A DNA stretch of 64,000 nt from the NCBI GenBank assembly GCA_964034945.1, contig OZ035962.1:36173943-36237942 (forward strand), read 5' to 3'. Positions within the stretch are counted from its first letter, which is position 1, and each line of letters begins with the position of its first letter. Below the pieces are notes generated by a model, which saw only the letters and a list, made by a program, of their open reading frames with translations, was not told where the DNA came from and searched no databases. Positions 7,401 through 41,871 of the stretch are shown here, one piece after another. The stretch is from Chrysopilus asiliformis (Eukaryota > Arthropoda > Insecta > Diptera > Rhagionidae). Position numbers and translations under genes: made by a program.

Positions 7401-10400
7401 GTAAGAGAGAGAGAACAACGTGTGCTAAAAATCGACACGCGACACATTTTAAAAAAAAAATTTCAAATACAGTGAAACATGTATACACCGAACCCTATAT
7501 AAGCCGAAAAATGGCCTAAGCCGACCAGTTTTCAAAGTCCCGTGAAACCTGGATTAGCCGGAACCGGCGTAATGTGAACTCGGAAATATTTTTTTCGTAC
7601 AAGGGGCTATCCATAAATATATCACCATAATTTTCGACCTTTAATTTTCGACCCCAAAGAAACCGTTTTTATACCCGTATGGTGAAACCAAAGGGTATAT
7701 TAACTTTGCCTTACCGTTTGTAACGCCAAGATCCCGTCATCGCACAAAAAAATTAATTACACCAGTGTGTTTAGAATCATAAAAATATTTAATTTCTGCA
7801 TGTCCGTCCGTCTGTCTGTCCGTCTGTCTGTCCGTCTGTCTGTCTGTCCGTCTGTCCGTCTGTGGCGCGGATTGCGGGCGCACGGATTGAGCTAGAGACT
7901 TGAAATTTTACACAGATCCGTTTTTTGTAAAATGCGAGGCTAAGTTCGTTAATGGGCAAAAATGGACCATTAGGGGGGGTACCCCCCATACGAACGAAAA
8001 CGGTTTTTGTGAATATCTCAAAAACGGTGCATCTTATCAAAAAAGTCCAAGAACAAAAGTTATTTAGGATATGATTCTACATAAAACTCCCATACATCAA
8101 AATCCGATTGGAATAAATTTAAAAAAATCTTATTGGAAAGTTTGACTTCAAAGTGGAATTTTGGTATAACTGTTCGAATTTTGATACGAATATCACCATA
8201 CGGGTCTCCAATGATTGCCAGATTGGCAATTATAGCTTTTGTTATGTTTATGATTTCTTTTTAAATTTCTTTTTAATTTCTTTTTAATTTCTTTTTAACC
8301 TTTTCTATTGAAAAGGTTCTAAGGACTTGTGCGAAACGGGCTAGATGCATACTAATTCCTGTTCTAATTCCAATTTTTATTGGAGGTCTCACGGTAAATT
8401 TTCGTTTCGTGTGAAACAAAACAATATTTTAAGGTTCAACCTGTGTACAAATTTCGATGCTTTTAAATCTTGTGCAATAAATCCGAAAATGCGGAGTGAT
8501 TGAAGCGAACGGACGTGATTTTTTAACCTCCTCGGAAAAGTGGCACAATAAGATTATTAATTAACATAAAAGGCGTGAAACTTATACTACGTTATTAGTA
8601 ACTCAAATTTTAAGTGGCGTATGAGTGAAAATTTAAGTGAAATGGATCTATCGTGTGGAAAGTGCGGGCAGGGCACTAGAAGTGACTTAAACAAGGTGCA
8701 GTGCACTGGTTTTTGCATGAAGTCGTTCCATGGAAAAAAGTGTATTGGATTGAATGAATACAATTTAAAGTTACTGGGAGAGAACAAAAACATTAAATTC
8801 ATGTGTGACAGCTGTTTAAATCGATTTGAAGCGTTAAACGATAATTTGAATATGGTCCTTCAAGAAATAAAAAAAAATAAGGATAGCTTATTGGAAACAG
8901 TTGATAAAAAAATAAGTGAAGTGATGAAATATTTCGACAAGTTTAAGAATGAAATAAAAACAAATAATGCAGATAAAACATTTTCTATGAATTCCAAGAG
9001 TTCACTGACCTATTCGGATCAGCTGAAATTACCAGTAATAGTAAAACCGAAAGAGAATAAACAAAAGAGTACTGAAACAATTAAAGCAATAAAAGAAAAG
9101 ATCAACCCGTCAGAGCTGTCGGTAAAAATAAACAATGTGCAGGAATTGAAAAGCAGTGGAGCAATAGCAATTAACTGTGGTGATAGACAAGCTGTTGATA
9201 AAATAGAAAATGAAATCAAAAATAAATTAGGTGAGGAATATGATGTTCAAGTCCCAAATATGCATAACCCAAAAATACTAATCGTTGGTATGACTGAGCA
9301 ATTAAATGAAGATCAAATTATCACTGCCATCAAGGCGCAAAATAAATTTAGCCTGGAACACATAAAATGCCTTAAAATTTATAACTCCTTTAAAAACAAG
9401 GCACTATATAACGCGATTGTGGAGGTAGACGGCAAATCTTTTAAAAAAATTATTAGTGAGGGAAAACTGAATATTGAATGGGATCGCTGTAAAGTCTATG
9501 AGAGTCTAAACGTACTGAGATGCTTCAAGTGCTGGGGATTTAACCACGGTGTGTCAACTTAGAACAAAAAGTAAATTTCATTTTTAGTTCCGATTTCAAA
9601 CACGGTGCGCTGTTGTTGCATGCTTTTTTCGTTTTTCAAACATGATGGCGCGCGTGTCGCATGTTTTCTCCGACTTGACCATGATTTGAGGTTAGTTTTT
9701 TTTTTCTTCATTTTGGGGCACATATTAATTCCGGTAATTTTTCAAGTATCCTTAAAACACCGGTATTTTAGGAAGAATCAGAGAACGATTCGTTTGAGTG
9801 GGTAGAATTGAAGCAGTTGTACCTTGAAACCCGTTGTGAGCCATCAGTTTCGCCCCTGAGACTTCGCTGTCTGTTTTGCCCAAAGTTGTGACATTCTGTG
9901 CGGTTGGGGCGCATCACTGCTTAAGAATTTTCCACAGTGACTTACTGCTGAAAGGTATCTCCATTTATTTGCAATTTTTGAGAAAATTTCATGGTGTATT
10001 TCTAGGTTACACAAACTACATTAACGATGTTTCTTGGGAGCCCGAGGGCGAATATTTAGCTTTAGTCAGTGAGGACCACACCTGCATACTTTTGCAGTCA
10101 GAGACGTGATTATTTGGGATCTGAGGAAGTCGAGGTAATGATCTCGGGATAGTCTTACTTTGCTACAATAAATTCTAATTCCTCTTCCAGTCGTTCGAGA
10201 CACTCGAGCATTCCATGAAGACGGAGGCAAAGTTGCCTCAAAATCAAGCCCCACTTAAGTTTTATGGTGGGCTTTGCTGGCACTATCGCCTTCCCTATAT
10301 CGTAGCTGCGTTTGATTGTAAACTGCTTTTGGGACGGCTCTGGAGCTCTAGCGCTTGGCTCGACACATTTGGCTTGTCCCTCGTCTTCACTGCCACTGCA

Positions 10401-13400
10401 GTAATGTGATATTTATTTAAAAATAACAAACCAAAATGTGATATTTATTGAAATTTAAAATAAAAAAACATTTAAAAGATATTGGTTTTGTTTTTTCAAA
10501 TTTTTATTGGATTTTCTAGCGAGAAAAATGTATCAAGGGCACAAACCAAGTTTAGCACAGGCGAGAACCACCCAATACTCAAACCAAAATAGTTCCGATT
10601 TCAAACACGGTGCGCTGCAGTCAATAAGCCAAAGTTGGGCGTCTATTATAATATATATTGTCTATGGATTTAACCACAAAGCGATAAATTGTACAACAGG
10701 ATCTTGCTGTTATAAATGTGGTAGTAAAGATCATATGGCTGCTAATTGTGAGAGCACAGCAGATCAATGTTTAAATTGTACTAGAGCTAGAGAAGATTTA
10801 GGACGAAAGGATATTGATGTTAATCACGATACTAGAAGTTCACAATGTCCAATCTATGTCAGAAAACTGGCACAACAACGTAGTAAAAGAATGTATTAGC
10901 AATTACAGGAGACGAAATGCATATACCTCAACATACAAGGAACCATAAATAACTTCAGTGAACTAGAATTCTCTATTTTTCCTAAATGCTTCGATTTTAT
11001 TTGCCTAAGCGAAACTCACTTATCAGATTTGGACGACAACAGCTTAGTGACAGTGCCTGGCTATAACATAATGAGGTGTAATTCTGCATCAAGGCATACA
11101 GGAGGAGTTATGTTTTACATCGAGAAGAGTTGGAATTATGCTCAAATACAAAATATTGCGGTTGGCCTTGATCATTGGTGGCTGGTGATAAAAGTTAGTC
11201 GAGGTCATGTCATTTTATACTTAGGAGTTATGTATAGGGCGCCATCATATATAAAGTCCAATGACACTTTCCTTGAAAATTTTAATAAATATATAGAAGG
11301 ACTTAGTGATTTCCGTGAAAAAATCGTAATTGTTGGTGACTTTAACGTCAATTGGTTGGCACCGAGTAATGCTCAAAATATGTTAAGTAACATAATTAGT
11401 GATAACGGATATAAACAAATTATAAATAAACCAACGCGAATTACAAGTGTTTCAAATTCATTAATTGACTATGTAATTGTTAATGACAGCTATAATATAA
11501 AAGCATCCATAGACGAAAACTTAAAAATCAGTGATCATGAAACAATTAAAATTTCAATTAGTAGTGGGCAAACGAATTGTCAGAAGGAAAGATCGATACA
11601 GATCTTTAGTTATAATAAAGAAAAATTTAGAAGTTATGTTAATAAGAGTGACCTTAGTACTGTTTTTTTCACCGACTGTAATTTAAAAGCAAAAACATTT
11701 AGTGATAATTTAAAAGAAATAGTGAATAGGTTCGTGAATGTCAAAAAATCAAGAATTAGTAAAAATAATTGGTTCTCTCATGAGCTGAGTTTATTAAAAG
11801 ACAAAAAAATAAAGCATTATAAGATCGCATATTTGACCGGTAAAACGAGTGACTGGAATAAATATAAAACTATTAGAAATAAATTTAAAAATAAAGTAAA
11901 TGTTGCAAAAAACAAATATATAAGCAAATCAATTGATAACGCGGTGGACCAAAAATCGATGTGGAAGTCAATTAAAACTCTGGTACTCAAGCAGATTAAG
12001 AGTGAAATATGTGAAGTTAACTTTAACAACATCACATACAAAGACAATACCCAAATTGCAGAAAAATTCAATCGGTACTTTATTGAAAGTGTGGAAGAAA
12101 TTAATTCTAGTATTCCATATAGACAATACAGAAATTTAATTGAGGAGCCAAAATGCCGATTTAAATTTCAAGAAATTACACTTACTGAATTAGAGAGAAC
12201 TATGAATGCAATTAATAATAAGAAGGACATGAATTCAGTAAGTATCCAAATATTTAAAGATGCATTTGACTTGTTTGGTGAGAATTTGTTGTCCATAATA
12301 AACCAGTCCCTAAAAAATGGGGTGTTCCCTGAAAATTGGAAAGAGTCAATTGTTATACCTATAGAGAAGATTCCTGGGACACACAACTGTTCTGAATTTA
12401 GACCGATCAATATGATATCTACCGAAGCGAAGATATTGGAAAAAGTGGCATATCAACAACTGGAGAAGTATCTAGAAGAAAATGATCTCATATCGGGACA
12501 ACAATCAGGGTTTAGAAAAAATCATAGCTGTGAATCCCTTATAAATTTTGTTATGGCCAAATGGAAGATTGCGGTAAATGAGAATAAGGCGATAGTTGCA
12601 GTTTTCTTGGATTTTCGAAGAGCATTTGAGACTCTGGATCGAGGTATTTTACTGCAAAAACTTAGCAAATATGGTATCACTGGGGTGGCGCTAAACTGGT
12701 TTATATCATACCTACAAGGAAGACACCAACGAACAAGAGTGAATGGCACTGTCTCGGATTTGATGGACGTTTCTTTGGGCGTACCTCAAGGATCAATTTT
12801 GGGTGTATTGCTGTTTCTGGTGTATGTCAACGATATGGAGAAGACGATTAGTGATGGAGAACTGGTCCTTTTCGCAGATGACGCTTTACTTTCTGTCACC
12901 GGAAATAGTATTGAGGGCTGCATAAATGACATGAATGAGCAATTGGTGAAAATTAGTACATGGTGCGAAGAAAATAAATTGAAATTAAACATTAGTAAAT
13001 GTAAAGGCATGATATTTAATAGTAAAACCAATAATAATCTTAACTTAAAAATTGATAATGAAATTATAGAGTTGGTAAATGAAACAAAGTATCTAGGTGT
13101 TATAATAGATCCAAGCTTAAGTTTTAAGAAGCACATAGATTATGTATGTAAAAAAATTGCAAAAAAATTGTATTTTTTCTCAAAAATTAGAGCCCGTCTG
13201 TCCTTAATGGGGGCAATTAAAATTTATAATTCAATAATAAGGCCGCATTTTGAGTACTGTTCCACTATACTGTTTTTAGAGACAAATGAATTATTAAAAA
13301 GAATGCAAAAGCTACAGAATAAAGGCATGAGAATCATACTAAGACTGAGTAGGTTTACTTCAAAAACATTTATGTTAAATACGCTAAAATGGTTAAGTGT

Positions 13401-14850
13401 TGACCAACGAATTCGAGTCAATGTATTATTGATAGTTTTTAAAATGAAATATAAACTATTGCCGCAATATTTATCTAATCAACTTTTGTATGTAGGTGAT
13501 AGCCATCAATATTCTGTAAGAAATAGATTAGATTTTAGGTTAGGATTTGCGCGTACTGAGAAAACAAAGAATATGTTAATGTACAAGGGATTGAAATTGT
13601 TTAATGAATTACCTAATAACTTAAAAACTGAAACAAATATAAGTAAATTTAAAAAAGGAATAAATAAATTTGTAAAGAATTATATCTAAGAAATGCTACT
13701 TATGCTATATGAAAATGTTGTGATAAAAAAATTGTATAAATTACAAAATAAAAGAATTATTATTATTATTATTATTATTATATTAAGACATTTTTTTTGT
13801 TTTTTAGAGCCCTGGTTCTGCAGACTGATTGTCAAATGCATTTACCAGCAAACATTGGCGATTATACAGATTTCTATTCATCTATCCATCATGCTACAAA
13901 TGTGGGAGTAATGTTTCGTGGAAAAGAAAACGCCCTAATGCCCAACTGGAAATATCTACCTGTGGGATACCATGGACGAGCTAGTTCAGTTGTTGTTTCC
14001 GGCACACCTATTCGACGTCCTTATGGACAAACTTTACCTGTGGAAGGTGCGGCGCCCGCATTTGGTCCATGCAGATTGTTTGATTTTGAATTGGAGATGG
14101 CGTGTTACATTGGTGGACCGGAAAATCAATTGGGCGAACGTATCAATGCTGAGGATGCTTGGAAACGAGTCTTTGGTTTTTCTTTAATGAATGACTGGAG
14201 CGCTAGAGATGTGCAAAAGTGGGAATATGTGCCCTTAGGACCATTCACATCGAAAAACTTGGGAACTACTATTTCACCCTGGATAGTGACTATTGAAGCT
14301 CTGAAACCTTTCATAGTGCCCAATTATCCTCAAGATCCAGCCGTGTTTCCATATTTAAGGCACAGTCAAAATTTCAATTTTGATATAAAATTGGAAGTTT
14401 CTTTAAAACGTAAGTGTAAAAAACGAATGCAAAATAAATATTGGACGGTGAAAAAACTCCTGACACTTAACAATTCAGTCTGTTTAATTTACTATTTTTT
14501 TGGCAGCTGAAAATAAGGAGGAAACCGTTATTTGCCGCTCAAATTACCGACATTTATACTGGACACCATTACAACAAGTCGCTCACCATTCCGTTACCGG
14601 CTGTAATATTCGACCAGGTGATTTAATGGGATCAGGAACCATAAGCGGCGAAACTGAGGACTCATATGGATCGATGCTCGAACTCAGCTGGAGAGGAACA
14701 AAACAAGTTAATTTAAGTACTGGAGAAACAAGGAAATTCCTTCAAGATGGAGATGAGGTAATAATGCGTGGCCACTGCGAAAGGAATGGATTACGAATTG
14801 GATTCGGCGAGTGTGCTGGAAAAGTTCTACCGGCTATACCTTTCCCGTAA
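4418..14850 (+). CDS. Faa: Fumarylacetoacetase (Faa), five exons
   Basis: Coding exons are 4418-4501, 4883-4966, 5251-5384, 13808-14409 and 14507-14850. They total 1248 nt, or 415 residues, close to the roughly 419 of the animal enzyme. All introns are GT-AG and the frame is open throughout. The enzyme hydrolyses fumarylacetoacetate to fumarate and acetoacetate, the last step of tyrosine breakdown. The N-terminus contains [12 protein letters not shown]. Exon 4 carries GDYTDFYSS (metal Asp), HHATNVG (catalytic His), FDFELEM (metal Glu pair) and [19 protein letters not shown] (metal Asp, Arg, Gln, Lys). Exon 5 carries SGTISGE and [11 protein letters not shown]. Intron 1 houses an antisense tRNA-Leu. 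Intron 3 is 8.4 kb, filled with transposons. The gene looks intact. Confidence 0.97.
4562..4569 (-). terminator. Pol III terminator of tRNA-Leu copy 2
   Basis: Eight A residues on the + strand give eight T residues just after the tRNA on the minus strand, as in copy 1. Confidence 0.85.
4572..4690 (-). tRNA. tRNA-Leu(CAA), intron-bearing, inside Faa intron 1
   Basis: Reverse complement of the gene at 286-404, identical over all 119 bases, including the 36-nt tRNA intron. The anticodon CAA and long variable arm are intact. It is transcribed against Faa from within intron 1 (4502-4882), so Pol III and Pol II transcription converge here. Confidence 0.96.
5991..6899. mobile_element. piggyBac-like TTAA element (non-autonomous)
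   Basis: Termini CCTTCTTCCGTCCCTC and GAGGGACGGATGAAGG match as inverted repeats at 15 of 16 positions and are flanked by TTAA (5987-5990, 6900-6903). TTAA duplication and C-rich ends are typical of piggyBac. Next to each end is a GGGTC/GACCC motif. No transposase is seen. A 66-bp-armed foldback lies inside. Confidence 0.8.
6361..6658. repeat. Foldback with 66-bp arms inside the TTAA element
   Basis: The sequence at 6361-6426 returns as its reverse complement at 6593-6658, with a 166-bp spacer. Identity looks complete. The arms contain ATCTATCCGCCCAAGGTG. It is either a nested insertion or a duplication internal to the host element. Confidence 0.85.
6904..7292. mobile_element. Second TTAA element, sharing a TTAA with its neighbour
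   Basis: 28-bp inverted termini start TCCACGCAGGC and end GCCTGCGTGGA, differing at about two positions. Each end contains a small GTGTCT-AGACAC hairpin. TTAA flanks it at 6900-6903 and 7293-7296. The left TTAA is also the right target site of the element at 5991-6899. At 389 bp without coding, it is a piggyBac-type MITE. Confidence 0.85.
7470..7600. mobile_element. pogo-like element end (fragment)
   Basis: CAGTGAAACATGTATACACC followed by repeated AAGCCG and GGATTAGCCGG motifs resembles the terminal regions of pogo-type elements such as those at 45765 and 46016. No matching opposite end is found. Confidence 0.4.
7673..8245 (+). mobile_element. INE-1/DINE-like repeat, copy 1
   Basis: It starts at ACCCGTATGGTGAAACC, which is echoed by CACCATACGGGT at 8194-8205, and ends with the stem-loop ATTGCCAGATTGGCAAT. 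Between them lies a GTCCGTCTGT-type microsatellite (7801-7862) and a GATTGAGCTAGAGACTTGAA segment. A subterminal inverted repeat, a central (GTCY)n tract and a 3' stem-loop are the hallmarks of Helentron-related INE-1/DINE elements. Copies lie at 23968-24510 and, inverted, at 28707-29064. Confidence 0.65.
9548..10665. mobile_element. 1118-bp insertion in LINE ORF1 carrying Nup37 fragments
   Basis: A 12-bp direct repeat, GGATTTAACCAC, flanks it (9536-9547, 10666-10677), and it breaks a zinc-knuckle codon run exactly. Inside, a 27-bp repeat starting AGTTCCGATTTCAAACACGG occurs at 9586-9612 and 10591-10617, possibly a second nested duplication. The stretch between holds intron-bearing pieces of a Nup37-like gene. 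No terminal inverted repeat or transposase is seen, so the transposing agent is unknown. Confidence 0.8.
9876..10360 (+). pseudogene. Nup37: Nup37-like (nucleoporin WD40) gene fragments
   Basis: Fragments match the recalled order of Nup37: [20 protein letters not shown], then [19 protein letters not shown] and SEDHTC, then [12 protein letters not shown], then [17 protein letters not shown] and [11 protein letters not shown] 51-bp GT-AG intron (about 9954-10004) separates the first two pieces and restores frame. A second GT-AG intron follows the RKSR piece (about 10136-10190). A mid-part of the propeller is missing. Kept introns mean a DNA-level copy, not a retrocopy. Nup37 belongs to the Nup107-160 nuclear pore complex. 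This copy lacks both ends and is dead. Confidence 0.7.
10900..13689 (+). CDS. LINE ORF2: AP endonuclease and reverse transcriptase
   Basis: The frame is open from the codon after the ORF1 TAG to 13689 (929 codons). The first ATG is at 11029, which would leave 886 residues and cut off the start of the endonuclease. Endonuclease motifs are [13 protein letters not shown] and SDHETIKI. Reverse-transcriptase motifs are [28 protein letters not shown] and the catalytic LFADDALL, then [12 protein letters not shown]. No RNase H domain follows. ORF1 and ORF2 share one frame separated by a single stop, so readthrough or reinitiation would be needed. It looks enzymatically intact. Confidence 0.92.
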   Translation, partial: QLQETKCIYLNIQGTINNFSELEFSIFPKCFDFICLSETHLSDLDDNSLVTVPGYNIMRCNSASRHTGGVMFYIEKSWNYAQIQNIAVGLDHWWLVIKVSRGHVILYLGVMYRAPSYIKSNDTFLENFNKYIEGLSDFREKIVIVGDFNVNWLAPSNAQNMLSNIISDNGYKQIINKPTRITSVSNSLIDYVIVNDSYNIKASIDENLKISDHETIKISISSGQTNCQKERSIQIFSYNKEKFRSYVNKSDLSTVFFTDCNLKAKTFSDNLKEIVNRFVNVKKSRISKNNWFSHELSLLKDKKIKHYKIAYLTGKTSDWNKYKTIRNKFKNKVNVAKNKYISKSIDNAVDQKSMWKSIKTLVLKQIKSEICEVNFNNITYKDNTQIAEKFNRYFIESVEEINSSIPYRQYRNLIEEPKCRFKFQEITLTELERTMNAINNKKDMNSVSIQIFKDAFDLFGENLLSIINQSLKNGVFPENWKESIVIPIEKIPGTHNCSEFRPINMISTEAKILEKVAYQQLEKYLEENDLISGQQSGFRKNHSCESLINFVMAKWKIAVNENKAIVAVFLDFRRAFETLDRGILLQKLSKYGITGVALNWFISYLQGRHQRTRVNGTVSDLMDVSLGVPQGSILGVLLFLVYVNDMEKTISDGELVLFADDALLSVTGNSIEGCINDMNEQLVKISTWCEENKLKLNISKCKGMIFNSKTNNNLNLKIDNEIIELVNETKYLGVIIDPSLSFKKHIDYVCKKIAKKLYFFSKIRARLSLMGAIKIYNSIIRPHFEYCSTILFLETNELLKRMQKLQNKGMRIILRLSRFTSKTFMLNTLKWLSVDQRIRVNVLLIVFKMKYKLLPQYLSNQLLYVGDSHQYSVRNRLDFRLGFARTEKTKNMLMYKGLKLFNELPNNLKTETNISKFKKGINKFVKNYI
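13756..13785 (+). repeat. (ATT)n tail of the LINE
   Basis: About ten ATT units mark the LINE 3' terminus. They sit directly upstream of the T-rich tract and AG of the Faa exon 4 acceptor (13806-13807). Confidence 0.9.
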
Positions 14851-21008: not shown

Positions 21009-21757
21009 AAGAGTCTTCAATAAGGCCACTCGATTTTTAAATGTAAATAAAACTTGTGTGTGAGAAATCCCCTCATTTATTTTAAAGAATATTTTTTATG
21101 GCAGTATAGAATAGACCGTCGTTCAAAGGCAGACATTTGAACGACACATTATATTCCATACTTAATGCCATAAAATGCTTGGTAACACGTACTCGGCAGG
21201 TCCAATTTTCGATGACTTTTTCGCATAAATCTCGCTGAATTTGCTGAATGTCGTTCGTTATGTTGGCTTTGAGGGCATCAATTGTTTGCGGTTTATTCAC
21301 ATACACCTGCTATTTAAGATAGCCCCAAAGGAAGAAGTCTAAAGTAGTTAAATCGCACGATCTCGGCGGCCAGTTTACGTCGCCGCCGCACGAGATAACC
21401 ATGCCCTGATATCGCTCGTGCGGAATGTCCATCATGACATGCGCTGTGTGGCATGTAGCGCCGTCCTGTTGTAACCACATGTTGTCGGTATGGGTATCCA
21501 TATCATCCAGTTTAGGCCACAAGAAGTTACTTATCATCGATCTATAGCGCTCGCCATCGACGGTTATGGCAATGCCCGTTTCAATGCAGAAGTACGGACC
21601 GATGATTCCGCCAGACCAAAATCCGCACCAACAGCAACTTTCTCGGGATGCATTTGGTGCTGGTGTATCTCGTGTGGATTGGTATCGCCCCAAATCTGAC
21701 AATTTTGCTTATTCACATATCCATTCATCAAAAAAAGGCATGTCTCTGTTAGATTAA
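21009..21757 (-). pseudogene. mariner (DD41D-like) transposase, 3' half
   Basis: On the minus strand this reads NKQNCQIWG, CGFWSGGIIGPYF, WLQQDGATCHTAHVMMD, then CDLTTLDFFLWGYLK and YVNKPQTIDALKANI. Forty-one residues separate the Asp of QQDGATCH from the Asp of TTLDFF, as in DD41D (rosa-type) mariners. At least two frame breaks occur, including a stop after WGYLK. The 3' terminal repeat reaches TA at 21007. The element is truncated near the FSDE region, so the first catalytic Asp is missing. Confidence 0.88.
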
Positions 21758-24605: not shown

Positions 24606-25539
24606 AAGGGTGGTTAAATTTTAAGGGCCGATGTTGAGTGTGAACCACACCTAAACGTCAAGTTTTTTTCTGCATTTCATTTGACATTTCTCAATTTCAG
24701 ACTAACTCAATTTGAACCATGGAAAGATACACAATCGAGCAACGCGTTAAAGTTATTCAGGCTTATTATGAAAATGGGCGTTCAAATCAAAATACATATC
24801 GTGCACTTCGTGATTTTTTCGGTCAATTTAATCGTCCAAATGTGCGTACAATCGGAAAAATCGTGCAAAAATTTGAGCAAACCGGGTCTGTAGGAGATGT
24901 GAAAACACCAGTGCATGCTCGTACAGCTCGTACTGCAGAAAATATTGCTGCTGTTCGCGATAGTGTGGCTGAAGAGCCGTCCACCTCAACTCGTCGTCGT
25001 GCCCAACAATTGCACCTCCCACGCTCGTCGTTGATGAACATTATGCATAAAGACTTGCATTTACACGCTTACAAGGTGCAATTGACTCAAGAACTAAAGC
25101 CTCTTGACCATTTCAAGCGTCGTCAATGGTCAGAATGGTGGCAAGAAATGGCAACAGTGGATGATCAATTTTCGAAGAAAATCATCTTCAGTGATGAGTC
25201 ACATTTTCACCTCAGTGGATTCGTCAATAAGCAGAACAGCCGCATTTGGGCGAATGATAATCCAAGAGTGATTGTCGAAAAACCAATGCACCCACAAAGA
25301 GTGACTGTTTGGTGCGGTTTATGGGCTGGCGGCACGAAGTGCACGATATGCATTTTGATTTGAACGCCCATTTTCATAATAAGCCTGAATAACTTTAACG
25401 CGTTGCTCGATTGTGTATCTTTCCATGGTTCAAATTGAGTTAGTCTGAAATTGAGAAATGTCAAATGAAATGCAGAAAAAAACTTGACGTTTAGGTGTGG
25501 TTCACATTCAACATCGGCCCTTAAAATTTAACCACCCTT
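24606..25539 (+). mobile_element. mariner with 207-bp palindromic ends (one-ended duplication)
   Basis: TA flanks both ends (24604-24605, 25540-25541). The outer sequence AAGGGTGGTTAAATTTTAAG at the left is mirrored at the right. Normal mariner terminal repeats are short. Here the mirrored arm (24606-24812 and 25333-25539) also takes in the leader and the first roughly 30 transposase codons. The 3' half of the gene and the true 3' end are absent, replaced by an inverted copy of the 5' end. Confidence 0.93.
24719..25363 (+). pseudogene. mariner transposase, N-terminal part
   Basis: The ATG at 24719 starts MERYTIEQRVKVIQAYYENG, a helix-turn-helix DNA-binding region, followed by TVWCGLWAGG after about 200 codons. 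The first catalytic Asp is visible in FSDESHFHL. The reading frame is clean up to the point where the inverted 5' copy begins (25333); it then runs antisense into the palindrome and stops. The second and third catalytic residues are missing, so the product is inactive. Confidence 0.9.
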
Positions 25540-31130: not shown

Positions 31131-34100
31131 ATGCATCCAATCGCAAAAATGAAGTATTTACCAACTTTTGGAGTTTTGCTATTACTGTGCGCATTTACAC
31201 AAGGAGGTAAAATTATATTACCGTAATTTTGTCTTTAAACGCAACAACCTAATTTAAAATATTTTTATAGCACCAAAGGGCCGAATTTGTGTTAATTATA
31301 TTGCTCCCGAATTTAACGCTCCTTATGAAATGGATGACGAGAATGATAACAGTGATTATGAAAATGAAAATAACGATTTTCAGGCTCTGCCTAGCCCAAC
31401 AACTCCAACCAATTTCATGCTTCTTGGCGAGGTATAAAGCATTAATTTTACATAAGCAATCTCGGTTGTGCGCTAAACGGATACCTAAAATTGATACAGA
31501 CAAGAAAAATTTATCAAAAGTATAATAAGTGATAAGGGGCTGTCCATTTAGATTTTTTCTAAAAGACTAATTTCTGGCACTGACTACACGGTAAAAAATT
31601 TTGGGCTGAATTTGAATTTTTTTGGTATTGTATACAGTTCCACACCGAAAAAAAAAACAATCTCGCGTACGATTATTATTTTTTTAATCTTCTCTTCATT
31701 GAAACGTGATCCAAATAAGTAATTGATTTTAATAACTTTTTTTTATTAAAACTTAATGCAACCACATTATTTTTTTAATGTATTTTTTGATTACGTTGTA
31801 ATCCAAATGCGCTATTTTTTAGATTTTTTTTTTAAATTTAATTCAACCGCCTTTTTTTTAATACATTTTTGTATTACAATGTAATGCAAATGCACTATTT
31901 GAAAAATTTACAATAATTTTATTCAAATTTAATATTATTATTAAAATTTGATTTATTGGAAAAGGAAAGCAGTAAAAGAAACAGTGTTTTTTTAAGACCT
32001 TCGTTTCTAATACTTCGCTTTTACCTTATATATTTGGAAGTTTCCGACCATATACGAATTATAACGGAAGGAAAAATTTATAAAAATATTGGAAAATAAT
32101 ATAAATTTTATTAAAAAAATATCGAATTCCAGAACTGAGATTAAAAGTTAATACAAAAAGCATTAAAAATAGACCCATTTAATGCTGTTGGCATTTAATG
32201 CTGTTGGCAATCTATAAAACTATAACAAAGTATTGAAAAATAATACAAGTTTGAATAAATATGTAGTTGATCATTTGAGACATTTTTAAATACTTTTTCT
32301 ATTAAATAAGTATTTAAAAATGTCGATTTCCAGAAATGGGATTTAAAGTTAGTCCAATAATTTTAACCGTGTAAGCTAAAGGCTCCCAAAGCGATACCCG
32401 ATACCCCGATAATGGAACAGTTTTCTTAGAGAGATGTCACACTGGGGCATCAGCTCCTGCAGCTGACTGATCCCGATATCAGTTGCACATGTAATCCAAT
32501 GGCGCATGGCACACTGCAAAAAATGTGCAGCTGCATGTCTGGGACACAGAGGTGACTTTTTTGAACTGACCTAAATGTAGCTGATATCAGGAACATGTCG
32601 GGTAGAGTCTAATGCCATTTTTGTTAGATTAAATAAAATAAAATGATAATTTTCAATATTTTTTTCGTCTGATGGTAATAATTGTCATCAGTGGCACAGT
32701 CTATTAAAATAGCATGGCCACTCTCTAGGTTTTATGCCTGGAGCCCAATGAACGCAACGCGAACGCAGAAACTGTCACTTACAAGTTTGTTCCATAGAAA
32801 TCATTTGAAGTGAGCACAGTGAACGCAACTACAATGCAAAAGTTTGCAAACTTCTAACTTTGCCGCAGAATTCTGCGTTGACAGTTCATAAAGTGAGTTT
32901 GGGGAAATGTCGTTCGAGGAAAAATTGATAGCCTTAGTGCAATAACAGACAAATGACAAAGATAAAGACCAACAAAGCAAATTATCGCTTCAAAATTACC
33001 CATTTTTGTAATTTTTCCAACTTTATACCACTTTATATTATGTCACTTGTACTACTTCACGAGATGCCATTGGGCTTTGCCGCTGAAATGTTGCGCTGCG
33101 TGACAGTTCACAGCATTGCAGTTGCGTTCGCGTTGCGTTCATTGGGCTCCAGAGGTTAGGCTCTCTACTTCATATAATGTTGACTTTAAAATAATTACTA
33201 GTTGGGGACATCATACAATTTTGACAAGTCTGTTTAACTAATAAACTTTTGACCAAGCGAAAATAAATACGATGTCCATCCAATAAGAGAAATTAAACAC
33301 AGCAATCGTACCAGCTGTAGAAAAACGTAGATGCTTGTAGGATTGCACAGATTCAGTTTTTTTAACAGAGAAATAAGGAGAAGTTCTTCCTCCGAGTCCG
33401 ACATTTTGACGTTTGAGGTCAGCTGTTCCCAGTTCAGTGTGCCATGCGACTGATCGAATCAGTTCCTGCAGCTGCCCGACCTGATGTCGGGATCAGTCAG
33501 CTGCAGGAGCTGATTGGCCAGTGGAACATCTCCCTTAGACGAACAAACTCTCTGTCCCCTTCCCCATACAAACGGACGTCACACTTGTAGGGGGTAACGT
33601 GACCACGATACTAAACTCCGTATAAAATGTCGCGAAAAGAGGACGAGAGGAAGAGGGAGTCCGAAAAGTTTAAAATTAAGTTAACGGGTTTTATGGACAG
33701 CTCCCAACCTATTAATGGAAACTGTGCGGTAGATACGTTCCACAAAAAGAGCGCGCAAACCGAAACCGCGCACTGTAAACCCTACTTTGTACGAAATTTT
33801 GGGGTTAGGAACATTTTTTTTAAACGAAAATTATAAAAAAAAACCGCGCAGCTACGAAATTTTTACCGCGCAGTTCGAAATTTTTGTATTAAAAACTTAA
33901 CCGCAGTTAGAAACCGCGCAGTTGGAGGGATTACTGTATAGACATTACCACGTCTTGAATTTTTTCTATTTAAATTTTTCCTCACTTCACAAATACAATT
34001 ATTTTCATATTTAAAACAACAAAAATGATTTTAGGCCGAAGAAGTGATATGTCCAAATCCGTTAGATTTTTGCTACACATTATGGAAGATCGGACAAAAT

Positions 34101-37100
34101 GGAACTGTGACCATTGTTCGCCAAGGTAAGTAATGCCCATAATGTTATTAATTAAAACCCTACTTTGAACGGGTTGTACAATCAAATTTTATTAAATAAA
34201 CGAAAATCCTACATATGTAATTTCTTATGTATTTCATAATGGTTCAAAGCTTTAGCGGCCTCATTTTGTGCATTCTCACTTAAAGATTTTGGCAAAACTA
34301 ATTTGCAACTGGCTTCCAAATCCTTTACAAGTAGGGTTTTACGGCCATTCCGCAATCTTATAATATTTGCTTCTGTCGTTATATTTTGAAACATATCAGT
34401 CATAAAATCGTTGAGAATTTTTACGGTTCTTTTTGACAAAGATAGTCTAGAATCCAAAACTTTTAGCATTTGTCGTAAATAAGAATCAAATCTTTCGTAC
34501 GAATCATGTTTTGATATCCTGCCATTGATATTTCTTGATCTTCTTTTAATTTTGTTTTTGGGTATCCCAACAGTTTTATTGTTTCCGCTGATAAATTCGG
34601 TTACAACATTCTCTGTTGAATTATTATAAACAGACGATTCTTCTGTACTAGAAGACGAAAAAAGAGATAATTTTTGGCCTGGGCTGCAAATTTCAGAAAA
34701 GAATTTAAAGATAAAATTTCAAAAAATATATCATCCCTCATACCTCATATTCAGATGTGGTTAATAAACGTTCGATATTCGTTTTAATTGACAGGCCAAA
34801 TTATTGTAATTCTAATAAGAATATATTTTTTATACTAGGTTGCTGGGATATATCAGATAAACAAGTGGCATGTCGACGAGCTGACTGTATTAGCGATGGG
34901 CCGACACCGTCATCTAAACTTCACAGGTTTTGTTGCTGTTCAACGGATTTATGCAATAGAAACGTAACCAGCCTTGATCCCATTGAGGTAAAAAGTTTTT
35001 AATAACAAATAAGTTTAATTATTGTGTCGATTCAAAAACATCAAAGTAGAAAAATTAGAATTTAAATTCGACTCAATAATTAAAGTTGAAAGTCACTTTT
35101 AATCATCAAAGAAAATCTGTTTAAAAAAAAATCCTTATTAACATGATTGTTATGGAATGCTTTTATCAAAGCTTGACAATGTGTTATTTCATTGGTTCGC
35201 GAGATTCTATTTGATGAAATAGTATTGTTTCTAATTTTTCATAGAATTTTAAGCCCTAGTCAATACAAATAATTTTTTTTTTACTTTTTAGACAGCAGAA
35301 AGTGTAATATTGAGTGAAACGGAAATACCTGAACTGGCGCCATTGCAATCAGTTTGGCTGTCTCCTTTGTTTTGGATATGCTTAACAACTACAACGATAC
35401 TATCAGTGGTGGCTATGCTAGTGTTTTTGGGATGTCAAACAGCACCAAAAACTGGTCCTGAAGTCGCACCGCTAGCCCCATCAGGTCCCGGATACAGTTC
35501 CAACTTACAAAATGTTGACAACCTAAAAGTGTGCTCCATGCTCGGTCAGGGAAAATATGGTACCGTATGGAAGGGGTTGGTCAATGAACAACCCGTTGCA
35601 GTGAAAATATTCTCAGCCCAGCAAAAGCAGTATTTTATTAATGAAAGAAATATTTATTCGTTGCCTTTGATGGATAGCCCATCCCTTTTATCATATTTTG
35701 GTAAGTTTAAAAAAAATACGAAATAAGCTTTGAAAATTGGCAAAAACGAAGATAAATCTATATAATAAGGCTTGGAAAGGGGGGAGGGGGGTAAATTATT
35801 TAAATTTTGGATTTCCTTAGAATTTTAGATATACATCGTTGTATTTAATCGTACTGAGGCTAAAAATATAATTTTTAAATTTTTTTTCTTTGTTCCTGCA
35901 TAACGTACACATCCAAACCAATTTCAATATAAATTTGCACACCGGTACAGTTCCTTAGGGATACTGTAGGCTGCGAAACGGTCATCTACATATATTATTA
36001 TATATATACAGGTATACTGGAAATTTTCTGCTAGTGTGTTGGTCGATATATTACTATCTGACGAATTTCCATTTTGTGTGTTTGAATGTTCCCTGTAAAA
36101 TCCATTTTACCTCCAATTTATATATGATTTGCAGTATATTGCGGTTCGAGCTCGAATTCGAAGACGGTCTGTCGTTATTCACTCGAATTCTTTTTAATAA
36201 AAATATACAAAATTGGCACAAATCTATAAGTAAACAGAAACAATCCGAGCTGTTGAAGTAAAATATCTTATGTGAATAGATCACGCCTTTCTTATACAAA
36301 ATCTACGTCCCGGCATAATTTACACTATAACTAGGGAGATCATACGTACCGGATTTGAGCATGTCAGTTTGCAAGCAACACGCAAAAATCTATTTTTTAC
36401 TTTTTAATGAAAATATCTTAATAACAGGCTAACAGACTAAGGGTACGTCCATAGTGGTCAAAAAACCAGGAGTGGTATTCCGAAACTTTTGTCTCAATCG
36501 TTTGTTTCGAGTTAGAAGAAAAAGCGATATTCGCTATCTCTGTTTCGCCCTGTCATTTATTTTGGTCGAAACAGAGACAGCGAATACTACTTTTTCTTCT
36601 AACTCGAAACAAACGCTTGAAACAAATTGCGGAATACCACTCCAGCTTCTCGCTTTATCGCTTTCCAGCCGCCGGTTAAAATTAACACGAGTATGAATTG
36701 CCGCGTCCATAGTGAACCGGCTTCTCGCTTTTATAAGAATCAACCGGCGTTTACCAGCTTTTACCGCAATCAGTTTTTAATTCTTGTTAACGCCGGTAAC
36801 CGGCTACAAGCCTGTTTAGACACTTGTTAGTTGTCATCGTTAGTTGGCCTTGTCAACAATTTTGTGCGATTAATATTTTATTTGTGAGCTTTTTTGGCAA
36901 AATGAATGCGGAAGTTAATAAAGAAATTTTTATTTCTAAAGTGTTTGTTAAATAAATTATTTGGGATAAACGACTAAAAGATCATTCTAATCGGAATGCT
37001 GTAGACAGGGCATGGAATGAATCAGTTGCGATTTCACTTTCGTTGTACCTGCGTTGGAAAGGTAATTTGCTCTAGCTTCATGGACACAAGCTCTTTTTTG

Positions 37101-40100
37101 GTGGGCAACTGCAGGGGGATGGTCATGGAAAAATCATTGCGTCTAAGTATTGTCAGAGAACAAATAATCTAGTGAATAAACTCTTAGAACAAATTTTTAG
37201 AGAAAATTTTTCCACTGTGAGATGAAGCAAGAGGATCCGATGTAACACGGAAAAAATTATCCATTCGATTCCTCCATCTCATTGAATAGATACGACGAAA
37301 ATGATTAGAAAATGTTCTCTCTGCTTCGTGCTCCCTAGTCTAAAAGTAATTAACTTTTAGGCCGTAGCTAGTGAATGATAAGGACATTTTTCCCCCCTTC
37401 GAAGGGGAAATTTGTCAAAAATTTGTTCTAAGAAATTATTCTCTAGATCAGCGGGCTTCGGCCATGTGCACCAAGGGCATTTTCGAGGCTCAAATTGCCC
37501 TGCTATCCATCGATTCTTCATGCTACCCGTTTCATTCTGGCTTGTACGAAAACTGCATACATACGCATATGAAAGAAATAATCTGTTTCACCTTGCATAT
37601 AATCCGTTCTGCTTCCACTTGTGCATTTTACATACCATGGAGCTTTGCTGAGCTCTAAGTAAGGCCATTTATGCGAGAGATTTTTATTAGCTCCAGTTGT
37701 CATTAGGACATTGACTGAAGCAGTGGTGTATTTCATACTGCTGAAAATCATGAAAAATTTAACACTGCTGAAAATCATGAAGCGTTCTGTCTCAAAAGAC
37801 GACACGAATTTTGAACATGATTGTTTTCTTATTCGGTGTGATAACACAATGCAATGTTTACTATGATTTCAGGAAATTAAAACAATAAAAAAATACAATT
37901 TATATAGGCATTTTCAGTCGTTTCATAAAATATCAATTGATCAAATTAATGTTTCTGGTTTTATGAAATTATTTTTATTTTCCGATTGTAATTCGGAAAT
38001 TTCATATAAACATTTTTCATTATCAAAACTTTTTTTAACGTAAAGTAAAACAATTAACAGTGTGTCAAAACCAAAAATAATGAAAAAGAGCTTTCAACAA
38101 AGTTTGAACTAGGCTCGGAGAGCAAGCCATATAAACAAGTAAATCGCTTGTCAGTGGTAGTGGATGCCCGAGAACTTTCAAAGCTTTCCTGGCCCTGCTC
38201 TAGATTATTTATTCTCTGGTATTGTATGCATGTGTCAATAAAAAATATTTTTTTTAAGTTTTCGGAATTTAACCTCCCTTTTTGTACTACACGGCATTTT
38301 ACAGGAACCTATCCACCGTATTATAGGAGGGTTACCTGTATAAAAATACTTAACCTGACTGACTGATTGACTAATTATCAACGCCCATACTCCTGGAGTG
38401 ATAAATCTGAAATTTTCACAGTATATTGTCTCCATGACTTAAGGTGGAAACAGAATTGCGGCTTTGTGGACTTCAGCTTCGGCTTCAGCTTTGACAGTTC
38501 TGTAGACTCAATGCTTTTCAACGTAATGGAACCATAGTTTAGAGATATATAGTTAGGAAACGCGTAATAAATTTTTTCCTGAAGAAGAGTACATTATCGT
38601 CTGTTTCATTTGCTTTGTAAAGACGCTAATTGCTTTTGTGTGAGAAATGCAACACTCTCGGGATATTTCGTATTGTCGGCAGAACATCCGCAACCAGGCA
38701 TTTAAAATGTTCCTTGCCAGTTGCCAGGCATTTTTTCTGTTTAAGCAACGTAACAAGTGAAATAAAAGTGTTTTTTTTTTGCTAAAAAATCCTATCGCCA
38801 TTGACAGTTGAAGAAATTGTGAAAGGCCGCTGGCGGCCCTTGTGTATGTGTTGGTCCAATATTTTGGTTAGTTCTGTGCGAGTATTAAAAATGATTTTTT
38901 TCAACAAGTCCATTTAAGCTAAATGATAAAAAGAGAGAAATGATGCTGTCGACTACGGAATGATGCTGTCGACTACTTCTAATCTATGATGGAACACAAT
39001 AGCAAAGTTGCAAAGCCGATGAAGCCGAAGTCGAAGTCGTAGTAGCTCTACTCTCTACTCTTGGTTGGCTTTGACAACTTTAACCTAACTTTTTTTGTGA
39101 GTAAATGATTGTCATTGAAAATGTTTGAAGAAAAGTTGATAAATATAGTGCAAGAAAATGAAATTCTTTATAATAAAAAAACAAGGAATACAGAAATGCG
39201 AAAAAAAAAGAATTATCATATAAATATGAATAAATATGAAGAATTATGAATTATTTGTCAAAGTTGCAATTGTGTTCGAATGAAAGTTGAAGCCGACGAA
39301 GCCAACAAAGTCCAAAGCTGAAGCCGAAGCCCAAAGCCCAAAAAGTCGCAATTCTGTTTCCGCCTTTAGACACTTATCAAGGCGTGGTTTTGCGAAAGCA
39401 TCCCATACCCTCACTTCACCGAAGCGACAGAGAAAGCGAATGAAAAAACTCTTGGTGTTAACATCATGGACCGTATACATAAAAATAAGCATATGCTTAT
39501 ACCTTTTTTTGGTGCAAATCCTGCAATTTTAATAAATAAAAATGAGCAAATTTTATACATCAGAAGCGGAAGCTGATTCTCAAACTTCGGGTATGATCAT
39601 TTGATTTCTCTTATTAACAAAAATTGCCAGATTTTTGTGCATATGGTTCCATGAATCGCGTAATTAGAAATGTCGAATTTTTGGTTCTCTAAAAATATTT
39701 TTGTTGCCCGAAAAAAATGAAATTAAGCTTTTAGGTTCTAGGGGGCTAAAAACGTAGGGTGGGGGAGGTCAAAATTCGTACTTATGGTTACTATAAAAAT
39801 AACGACTATTTACACAAAAGAAATAATGATTTTTTTATTTTTTTTTTCAGGTTGTGATGAACGTCGAACACTTGATGACAATATTGAATTCTTTCTGGTG
39901 CTATCTCTAGCACCTTACGGATGCCTCCAGGATTGGCTACGAGACAACACCACATCATACTCAGTTTTTTGTAGAATGGCAAAGTCAATAACTAGGGGGT
40001 TATCTCACTTACATACCGAAATTAAAAAAGCTGACCTGATAAAACCCTGTGTGTGTCATCGTGATTTCAATTCTCGTAATATTCTAGTCAAAGCAGATCT

Positions 40101-41871
40101 TTCCTGTTGCATTTCGGATTTTGGTTTTGCATTAAAAGCGTTCGGTTCGCGATACGAATATAAAGGCGAAATATCCGTTGCAGAAACCAAAAGCATCAAT
40201 GAAGTTGGCACATTGCGATATATGGCTCCGGAAGTATTAGAAGGTGCTGTAAATTTAAGAGACTGTGAAACAGCACTAAAACAAATCGATGTGTATTCAT
40301 TGGGCTTAGTCTTATGGGAGTTATGCACGCGTTGCCATGACTTATATCCCCATGGTCAGCTAGCGCCAGAATACAAAGCGCCCTACGAGGCAGAAGTGGG
40401 TAAACATCCGTCATTCGAACAGATGCAAGTTTTGGTATCTAGGCATAAGGCGAGACCACTATTTCCACCTTGTTGGGGTGGAGGCCCGGCGGGACGGATT
40501 GCCCGTGACACCTGTGAAGATTGCTGGGATCACGATGCCGAAGCTCGATTGACTGCACTTTGCGCAGAAGAACGGATACAAGAATTGGGTAATCTGAAGC
40601 CACGCTCTTACGTAAGCCGGGGCCCAAGTCCACCACTAAATGCCAACAATTTCATCACAATTCAATCAGTACAAAATTCCGCCTCAGGCAATGGACTTAA
40701 TTCAACTCCAATGAGTGATTCCAATATCAATGGTATCATAACACCACCAAATCAAATAATTCCGATAGTTAACAATTGCAGTAGCCAAATATCTCCTCAC
40801 AGTTCCGGTGCTACCCCGAATACGTCACCTTTAACAGAAAAAAATCACATTATGTATTCGCAACAAATTCAACCATTTCAGGGACGAAATCCATGTCAAG
40901 AGAGGAATTTGGCGCCACTCAACATTCATAATCAAGTTCTAATCGAGAAAAGTCGAAAGCATAGCTTTGTGGATCGTAATGAGGAAAACAGTTTCTCGTG
41001 CCTAGACGATGATGTTAGCGTAGAAGATCTCGTCTCATCAATGAATTCAAGATCGATAAATGAGAATATAGTCATGGGCCAAGGATTTCCTAAACAAAAT
41101 AATACCGATAAAAAGCTGCGCGGTTGGAATGGGGTGCGTGCTCTAATCCAAAAGAAGCTATTCCGACGTGTTCCATATCCAATTGGGGTTACTAATCATG
41201 GCGTTGATCCGGATGAAAAATCTAATCTAGTTGAAAATAAATTCATAGTGCATATTGATAATTCATCAGTTTCAACGACAACATCACCCACTAGAGACAC
41301 ACGTGTCAATTTAGTCGAATCGAGAAACAAATATCAGAATGGAATGGTTCAAACGAAATTGGAGTCGGCGAGACCAAGCAACTTAGATTTAGTACCAATT
41401 AATGTTAGGATAAATGGTTTATCTGCAATCTCTAACAGTAATACAACAGATATCGTTAGAAATATATCAAAAGGACGAAATGACTTAATGGAAATAAATG
41501 AACCTGTGAGTATATATAAAACTCCTCCAGGATATGAGGACTCCCTAGATCCCCAGCAATTCGTTGTAATTCGAGATCCACATAATCCAACAATATCGCC
41601 GCCAGCTCGTATTGTCATCTCCCGTTCTGCGAATGCTGTGAAAAATTTAAATCAATCGATGGATGATAAACTTATGAAAAGACAACGCAGCTTAGAAGTA
41701 TTCCGTGAGGTGTTTGGCGCCAAATGTAGTACCGAACGATTACGTGATCCTAGTCAACGTGTTAAAACTCCGGGTGATGTCCCGCCATCCGTTCGAAAAG
41801 TCAGAGCTTCAAAAACATTGAGCCTTTACGACGATCGCATGATGGATTCGTCAACATTAAACACACTCTAG
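31131..41871 (+). CDS. wit: Wishful thinking, BMP type II receptor kinase
   Basis: Coding exons are 31131-31206, 31271-31431, 34035-34125, 34839-34987, 35292-35700 and 39851-41871 (2907 nt, 968 residues), all GT-AG and in frame. The first exon starts at an acceptor at 31043, so untranslated exons lie upstream. Residues 1-25 form a signal peptide. The Cys-rich ectodomain ends in the type II/I receptor box FCCCSTDLCN. The membrane span is about 183-206. The kinase runs from about 237: GQGKYGTVWKG, VAVK (K264), HRDFNSRN (D367), SDFGFAL (D385), GTLRYMAPE. A long Ser/Asn-rich tail follows, as in type II BMP receptors. In flies Wit receives Gbb signals at the neuromuscular junction and phosphorylates type I receptors. 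Intron 3 hosts an antisense H2B-like gene, and intron 5 (4.1 kb) several MITEs. Confidence 0.96.
32431..33532. mobile_element. Foldback-type element with 52-bp ends in wit intron 2
   Basis: 32431-32482 pairs with 33481-33532. The arms contain CAGCTCCTGCAGCTGACTGA. The 1.1-kb element holds another MITE (32738-33152) and a CATGGCCACTCTCTAGGTT block akin to the MITE at 51420-51743. Near 33440-33480 part of the arm is present again as TCCTGCAGCTG. No coding. Confidence 0.8.
32738..33152. mobile_element. Nested MITE with 29-bp perfect ends
   Basis: CTGGAGCCCAATGAACGCAA and nine further bases return exactly inverted at 33124-33152. The flanks CTCTCTAGGTT and AGGTTAGGCTCTCT suggest insertion into a CTCTCTAGGTT-bearing repeat with a short AGGTT duplication. 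Superfamily not assigned. Confidence 0.8.
33770..33937. mobile_element. pogo/Tigger-like right end (fragment)
   Basis: Repeated AAACCGCGCAG and ACGAAATTT motifs lead to a terminus GGAGGGATTACTG followed by TA, the shape of a pogo-type end. No left partner is identified with confidence. Confidence 0.4.
34209..34748 (-). CDS. Divergent histone H2B-like protein, antisense in wit intron 3
   Basis: Exons on the minus strand are 34748-34744 (ATGAG) and 34683-34209, joined across a 60-bp GT-AG intron (34684-34743, donor GTATGA, acceptor TTTGCAG). This gives 159 residues. An in-frame TAA lies 15 bases upstream of the ATG. Residues about 66-150 follow the H2B fold: YERFDSYLRQMLKVLDSRLS, SKRTVKILNDFMTDMFQNI, TTEANIIRLRNGRKTL, DLEASCKLVLP, and ENAQNEAAKALNHYE for H2B AVSEGTKAVTKYT. 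A Ser/Thr/Asn-rich N-terminal extension (1-45) and a KNKIKRRSR basic patch precede it. Core H2B genes lack introns and are far more conserved, so this is a variant, perhaps germline-specific (inference). A fast-evolving H2B pseudogene is less likely because the frame and splice sites are clean. Confidence 0.82.
36469..36643. mobile_element. Palindromic MITE, 175 bp, in wit intron 5
   Basis: GGAGTGGTATTCCG faces CGGAATACCACTCC, and a GTTTCGAGTTAGAAGAAAAA block is mirrored inside. Nearly the whole unit folds into one hairpin. A half copy is at 56579-56685. Related ACGTCCATAGTG motifs flank it, hinting at a larger host repeat. Confidence 0.8.
37154..37428. repeat. 275-bp dispersed repeat, copy 2 (wit intron 5)
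   Basis: Nearly identical, equal-length copy of 15791-16065 in the same orientation. Here the 3' side continues AAGAAATTATTCTCTAGATC, which partly mirrors the start AGAACAAATAATCTAG and may be the true inverted end. Confidence 0.85.
38442..39365. mobile_element. Harbinger-type MITE copy A, with nested insertion
   Basis: AGGTGGAAACAGAATTGCGG at the left faces the inverse ending TTCTGTTTCCGCCT at the right. TTA flanks both ends (38439-38441, 39366-39368), the 3-bp TWA duplication of PIF/Harbinger. It is homologous to copy B at 50119-50552 but lengthened by the 456-bp insertion at 38533-38988. Internal CTTCGGCTT/AAGCCGAAG repeats are plentiful. Located in wit intron 5. Confidence 0.85.
38533..38988. 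mobile_element. 456-bp insertion nested in MITE copy A
   Basis: ATGGAAC is duplicated at both sides (38526-38532, 38989-38995), and the ends CATAGTTTAGA / TCTAATCTATG are near-inverted. Copy B is uninterrupted at this point. No coding. The 7-8-bp duplication would fit hAT or P-type, undecided. Confidence 0.75.
39366..39850 (+). other. End of wit intron 5
   Basis: No element or gene recognised. A T-rich tract and CAG at 39841-39850 form the acceptor of the last wit exon. Confidence 0.5.

Follow-up and report, generated by a model that had tools for sequence, protein, structure and literature searches.

We report the analysis of a divergent H2B-like histone gene that lies antisense within an intron of the wit gene of the fly Chrysopilus asiliformis. 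The window, by which we mean the whole 64,000-nucleotide stretch of DNA analysed, carries wit exons on its plus strand, which were mapped by tblastn with five wit proteins of other flies, and the H2B-like gene on its minus strand, spanning 34209-34748 (Table 1). The gene takes up 540 bp of the 713-bp wit intron 34126-34838, which bears out the preliminary description in placing it antisense within wit, and both exons flanking this intron precede the membrane and kinase part of wit. The best match of the wit kinase in the protein database is 86% identical, followed by one at 80%, Condylostylus at 79% and Episyrphus and Phlebotomus, each at 75%. In a quick tree of 21 sequences the wit kinase falls apart from Drosophila, with its 86% match (support 0.92) and with Condylostylus and Episyrphus, and the host is accordingly placed as probably a brachyceran fly; the tree is a rough one, in which the midges Polypedilum and Clunio are placed beside the higher flies. 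Elsewhere in the window (8579-13689, 21310-21708 and 24716-25363), LINE-like reverse-transcriptase-type and mariner-like transposase frames were recognised by eye in the list of open reading frames.

Table 1. Features of the wit intron, its flanks and the H2B-like gene, with the basis of each assignment
Feature	Position in window	Strand	Basis
wit exon for the extracellular part, past the H2B-like gene on its 3' side	34044..34125 (start approximate)	+	tblastn
wit intron holding the H2B-like gene antisense, 713 bp	34126..34838	+	splice sites read from the letters
wit exon for the extracellular part, on the upstream side of the H2B-like gene	34839..34990 (end approximate)	+	tblastn
Further wit exon	about 35256-35702	+	tblastn
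wit kinase and C-terminal exon	39835..41868	+	tblastn
TATAAA, candidate TATA box, overlapping the wit acceptor tract and 81-86 nt before the ATG	34829..34834	-	motif match only
Predicted exon 1 of the H2B-like gene: ATGAG (start codon and two bases)	34744..34748	-	letters read directly
Predicted 60-nt GT-AG intron (GTATGAG...TTTGCAG) of the H2B-like gene	34684..34743	-	splice scoring, score 6.58
Alternative 96-nt intron with stronger in-frame acceptor; exon from 34647, 147-aa product	34648..34743	-	score 8.56
Exon 2, which carries the N-terminal tail, the H2B histone fold and the stop codon	34209..34683	-	ORF, Pfam and PDB matches
91-residue block (residues 65-155 of 159), gap-free against the canonical H2B fold and alpha-C	34224..34496	-	alignment
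AATAAA, candidate poly(A) signal, 15 nt past the stop codon	34188..34193	-	motif match only

The H2B-like gene is visible as a stop-to-stop open reading frame of 169 codons (minus strand, 34209-34718), which, as the preliminary description had stated, lacks its own start, there being no ATG ahead of the histone fold. Among the 23 combinations of start, donor and acceptor that were enumerated and scored with splice-site weights, 20 of which were listed, the donor of exon 1 has the top score and the best two combinations share this donor and the same start, with the 96-nt intron ranking first and the 60-nt intron second. Joining ATGAG to exon 2 across the 60-nt intron gives a predicted protein of 159 amino acids (pI 9.9) with an in-frame stop upstream. 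Some splice solution was offered by 220 of 400 random upstream sequences, three of which scored as high as the 60-nt intron and one as high as the 96-nt intron, so that credence can be given to the start and the donor, while the choice of acceptor lies between two sites. The earlier model of a mini-exon and a 60-nt GT-AG intron encoding 159 residues stands as regards its start, donor and stop and is less certain at its acceptor, since the in-frame site with an exon from 34647 (147 residues) scores better. Use of this second acceptor would drop 12 residues of the tail, and alternative splicing of the H2B tail is possible. The N-terminal tail is itself weakly supported because, of 14,609 non-coding samples, 406 had an open stretch of 62 codons, a tail-like length, by chance. 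With its start placed in a 5-nt exon, a gene of this kind would escape ORF-based annotation.

The predicted protein matches the core histone family of Pfam, PF00125 (29.7 bits, cut-off 26.4; E 8.4e-7), and 182 sequences of the PDB at E<=1, the best 60 of which are all named as H2B or as fusions with H2B; H2B type W-T chains are present among the matches. The recognisable H2B fold that had been claimed for it is supported, at the level of sequence similarity, by both searches. Against the canonical H2B of the same genome, the 91-residue block is identical at 26/91 and positive at 53/91 positions with zero gaps, and the H2B-specific alpha-C helix appears from the sequence to be kept, the alignment running gap-free through it to canonical Lys125. 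Seventeen of the 35 positions that are invariant across five compared H2Bs are also kept. AlphaFold2, run with no alignment, gave poor models (pLDDT 43.6 and 50.2). In a Foldseek search the first three matches were chains of H2A-H2B or nucleosome entries (E 0.07-0.41), and none of the 41 matches reached E<=0.001; the histone fold is therefore argued here from the sequence. NF-Y, TFIID-18kDa and other histone-fold families were rejected, their Pfam scores lying below the cut-off and the best 60 of the 182 PDB matches being H2B. By alignment, the gene encodes a divergent H2B, far more altered than its canonical counterpart in this genome; its description as fast-evolving holds in the comparison with that counterpart.

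Once all 44 first-look candidates were scored, the genome (429 Mb, 42 contigs) was found to contain 37 matches, namely the H2B-like gene itself and 36 matches in one tandem array at C3:70.78-70.97 Mb. The H2B-like gene is single copy and lies outside this histone array, and no copy intermediate between it and the array H2B is present among the genome matches. The 29 array loci that were fetched (L002-L030), of the 36 array matches, encode one identical H2B. A Pfam search of the genome, among the matches listed (part of 151), gave no other H2B outside the array and added other histone-fold loci. Two shorter matches inside the array, on the H2B strand and with 86-codon frames (G000:C3:70791332-70791565 and 70797391-70797624), are perhaps truncated copies of H2B.

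At E<=5, the Rfam Histone3 model found the stem-loops of all three histone genes (H3, H2A and H2B) in the array locus L002 and, in the same search, no stem-loop in L001, the locus with the H2B-like gene; at the Rfam gathering threshold one of the three L002 stem-loops, that of H3, is found. A simple consensus pattern for the histone stem-loop likewise matched nothing in L001 and two of the three genes in L002. Unlike a replication-coupled H2B, the H2B-like gene thus has no detectable 3' stem-loop, lies outside the array and has an intron, though a predicted one; of the features of a replication-independent variant, the single copy is seen and the intron and AATAAA are read as predictions from the letters. 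The upstream TATAAA may well be a chance occurrence in AT-rich DNA. According to PMC8015243, introns and poly(A) tails are usual in histone variants, and variants of H2B beyond the few that are named are mainly limited to spermatogenesis. The preliminary statement that core H2B genes are intronless is correct for replication-coupled H2B; in mammals the intron-bearing germline variants H2B.K and H2B.N have been described (PMC8857922), so that this kind of gene is already known.

We consider it probable that the gene is a functional, single-copy, replication-independent H2B variant, an intronic duplicate that has diverged and that replaces H2A-H2B in the nucleosomes of a restricted cell type. 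The intact frame, the constrained fold, the candidate poly(A) signal and the absence of a stem-loop match are indirect evidence of function. In the mechanism that we infer, a duplicate of canonical H2B would have landed in the wit intron and diverged there, after gaining a 5' mini-exon together with a poly(A) signal and a promoter of its own, and the gene would be transcribed and spliced. Its product would probably pair with an H2A, either the canonical one or the H2A.X-like histone that this genome encodes in an intron-bearing gene, and the H2B-like dimer would take the place of H2A-H2B in the nucleosomes of some restricted cell type. The likeliest such type is the germline, a role suggested by analogy with known H2B variants. 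Such a replacement would alter nucleosome stability and signalling. If expressed in the germline, the gene would represent an innovation in H2B like those of the mammalian germline variants, in an order with strong genetics.

In human H2B numbering, Ser55, Asp68, Phe70, Glu76, Arg86, Thr88 and Glu113 are kept in the H2B-like protein, and Tyr83 is replaced by Arg, Glu105 by Ser and Lys120 by His. We take Arg86 and Thr88 to be residues of L2 and Ser55 of L1, Tyr83 to lie on the H4 side, Glu105 to belong to the acidic patch and Lys120 to be the ubiquitin site of H2B. These kept and replaced residues lead us to expect that the protein pairs with H2A and binds DNA via L2, that its contact with H4 is weaker and its acidic patch reduced, and that it carries no ubiquitin at Lys120; the protein would then enter nucleosomes with H2A and might be expected to affect their stability. 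The N-terminal tail is long and rich in Ser and Asn, and the basic stretch before the fold is kept. Loss of Lys120, Glu105 and Tyr83, with a tail of this composition, would also suit an H2B-derived structural protein of the sperm that lies outside the nucleus and is no longer nucleosomal, like the mammalian subH2B (H2B.L), and PMC3380720 does describe a subacrosomal H2B variant in mammals. We regard this as the foremost of the rival explanations and yet as unlikely, since L2 Arg86 and Thr88, L1 Ser55, Glu76, Glu113 and the basic pre-fold stretch are kept.

Purifying selection was examined by mutating the fly's own canonical H2B without selection to the observed nucleotide identity (133/273) in 2000 simulated sequences. 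The frame stayed open in 18 of these, and in all 2000 the BLOSUM score fell short of the observed 134, the best being 88, from which past purifying selection on the H2B fold is likely. Compared with canonical H2B, second codon positions are conserved at 54/91, first positions at 37/91 and third positions at 42/91, and that the first positions are no better kept than the third counts against the functional reading. The constraint shown is of the past and cannot tell a living gene from one lately dead. A pseudogene of the latter kind, a long-functional H2B duplicate that is now silent with its frame still whole, would suit the low conservation at first codon positions and agrees with the two protein database searches, in which no relatives were detected among 23 candidates (none at E<=0.001) and a further 6 (none at E<=10). 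This absence of relatives is weak evidence because the search method needs shared 5-mers and the nearest wit match, in a database with many Diptera, is just 86% identical. The frame, predicted intron and signals are all intact and none of the 2000 neutral sequences is as H2B-like, and we hold a recent death of the gene, next in order among the rivals, to be improbable. A scan of viral contigs gave no pattern match to the H2B-like protein and, with canonical H2B, 23 pattern matches, none confirmed as a relative; a literature search, outside which most subscription papers lie, turned up no account of a fly H2B that is highly divergent.

A dedicated germline nucleosome, in which the H2B variant would form a dimer with the H2A.X-like histone, with no ubiquitin at Lys120 and a weakened acidic patch, and in which the position inside the intron would make transcription of the variant and of wit, the BMP receptor gene, interfere with each other, is more doubtful again. 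An origin of the histone in a kinetoplastid parasite of flies was also considered and is judged very improbable: the best single-domain PDB match is 8com (56 bits), which we take to be the H2B of Trypanosoma brucei, ahead of 2pyo (46 bits), presumably of Drosophila, and identity is 30/87 with 8com and 26/91 with the H2B of the fly itself; however, of the 45 sites that distinguish 8com from the fly's H2B, the protein agrees with 8com at 10 and with the fly's H2B at 5, which is not significant (sign test about 0.3, two-sided), and the gene has a predicted intron. A chance open frame without a coding role is extremely improbable, given the similarity to H2B (E 4.4e-14 to a single-domain chain) and given that a frame of 169 codons was open in none of 13,853 samples taken from the remaining, non-coding sequence of the window and in none of 3,000 order-1 Markov sequences.

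Considered as a functional H2B variant, the fly gene shares with the replication-coupled H2B of its own array the same 91-residue fold and alpha-C, gap-free, and differs from it in the 26/91 identity, single copy, predicted intron, AATAAA, lack of a detected stem-loop and long Ser/Asn-rich tail. It resembles the mammalian H2B.K and H2B.N in being a diverged H2B with an intron, predicted in this case, whereas most H2B.N are truncated and without the alpha-C that is kept here, and H2B.K has a polyglutamine tail that the fly gene is without (PMC8857922). H2B.K and H2B.N are vertebrate, and the predicted intron of the fly gene sits in the N-tail just after the start. The mammalian H2B.W and subH2B/H2B.L are likewise divergent H2B variants, though PMC3380720 describes them as mammal-specific clades and there is no sign of a common origin with the fly gene. 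Insect H2B genes with an occurrence in testis, germline or sperm are NV13549 and NV10349 of Nasonia (PMC4683638) and CPIJ020276 of Culex (PMC9934393), which are likened to the fly gene by this occurrence; no sign of orthology or of a similar divergence was seen in these sources.

Further histone genes were noted in the same genome. An off-array H2A.X-like gene (L063 1155-1673; G000:C2:72876154-72876672) encodes 130 amino acids ending in SQEY, is interrupted by two introns (75 and 51 nt) and has 75 identical residues in a 112-column alignment with canonical H2A; no histone stem-loop match was found for it, and its product is a possible partner of the H2B variant. An H2A.Z-like gene (L064) has a readable C-terminal frame that ends ...SLIGKKGGPE, with no SQ motif. 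In Drosophila the fused H2Av does the work of H2A.X; in Chrysopilus asiliformis H2A.Z and H2A.X may be separate genes. Three CENP-A-like stretches (L061, L065 and L067), named by eye, are possible duplicates of cid; that of L065 has one stop inside the match, and those of L061 and L067 have none inside and short frames of 79 and 99 codons.
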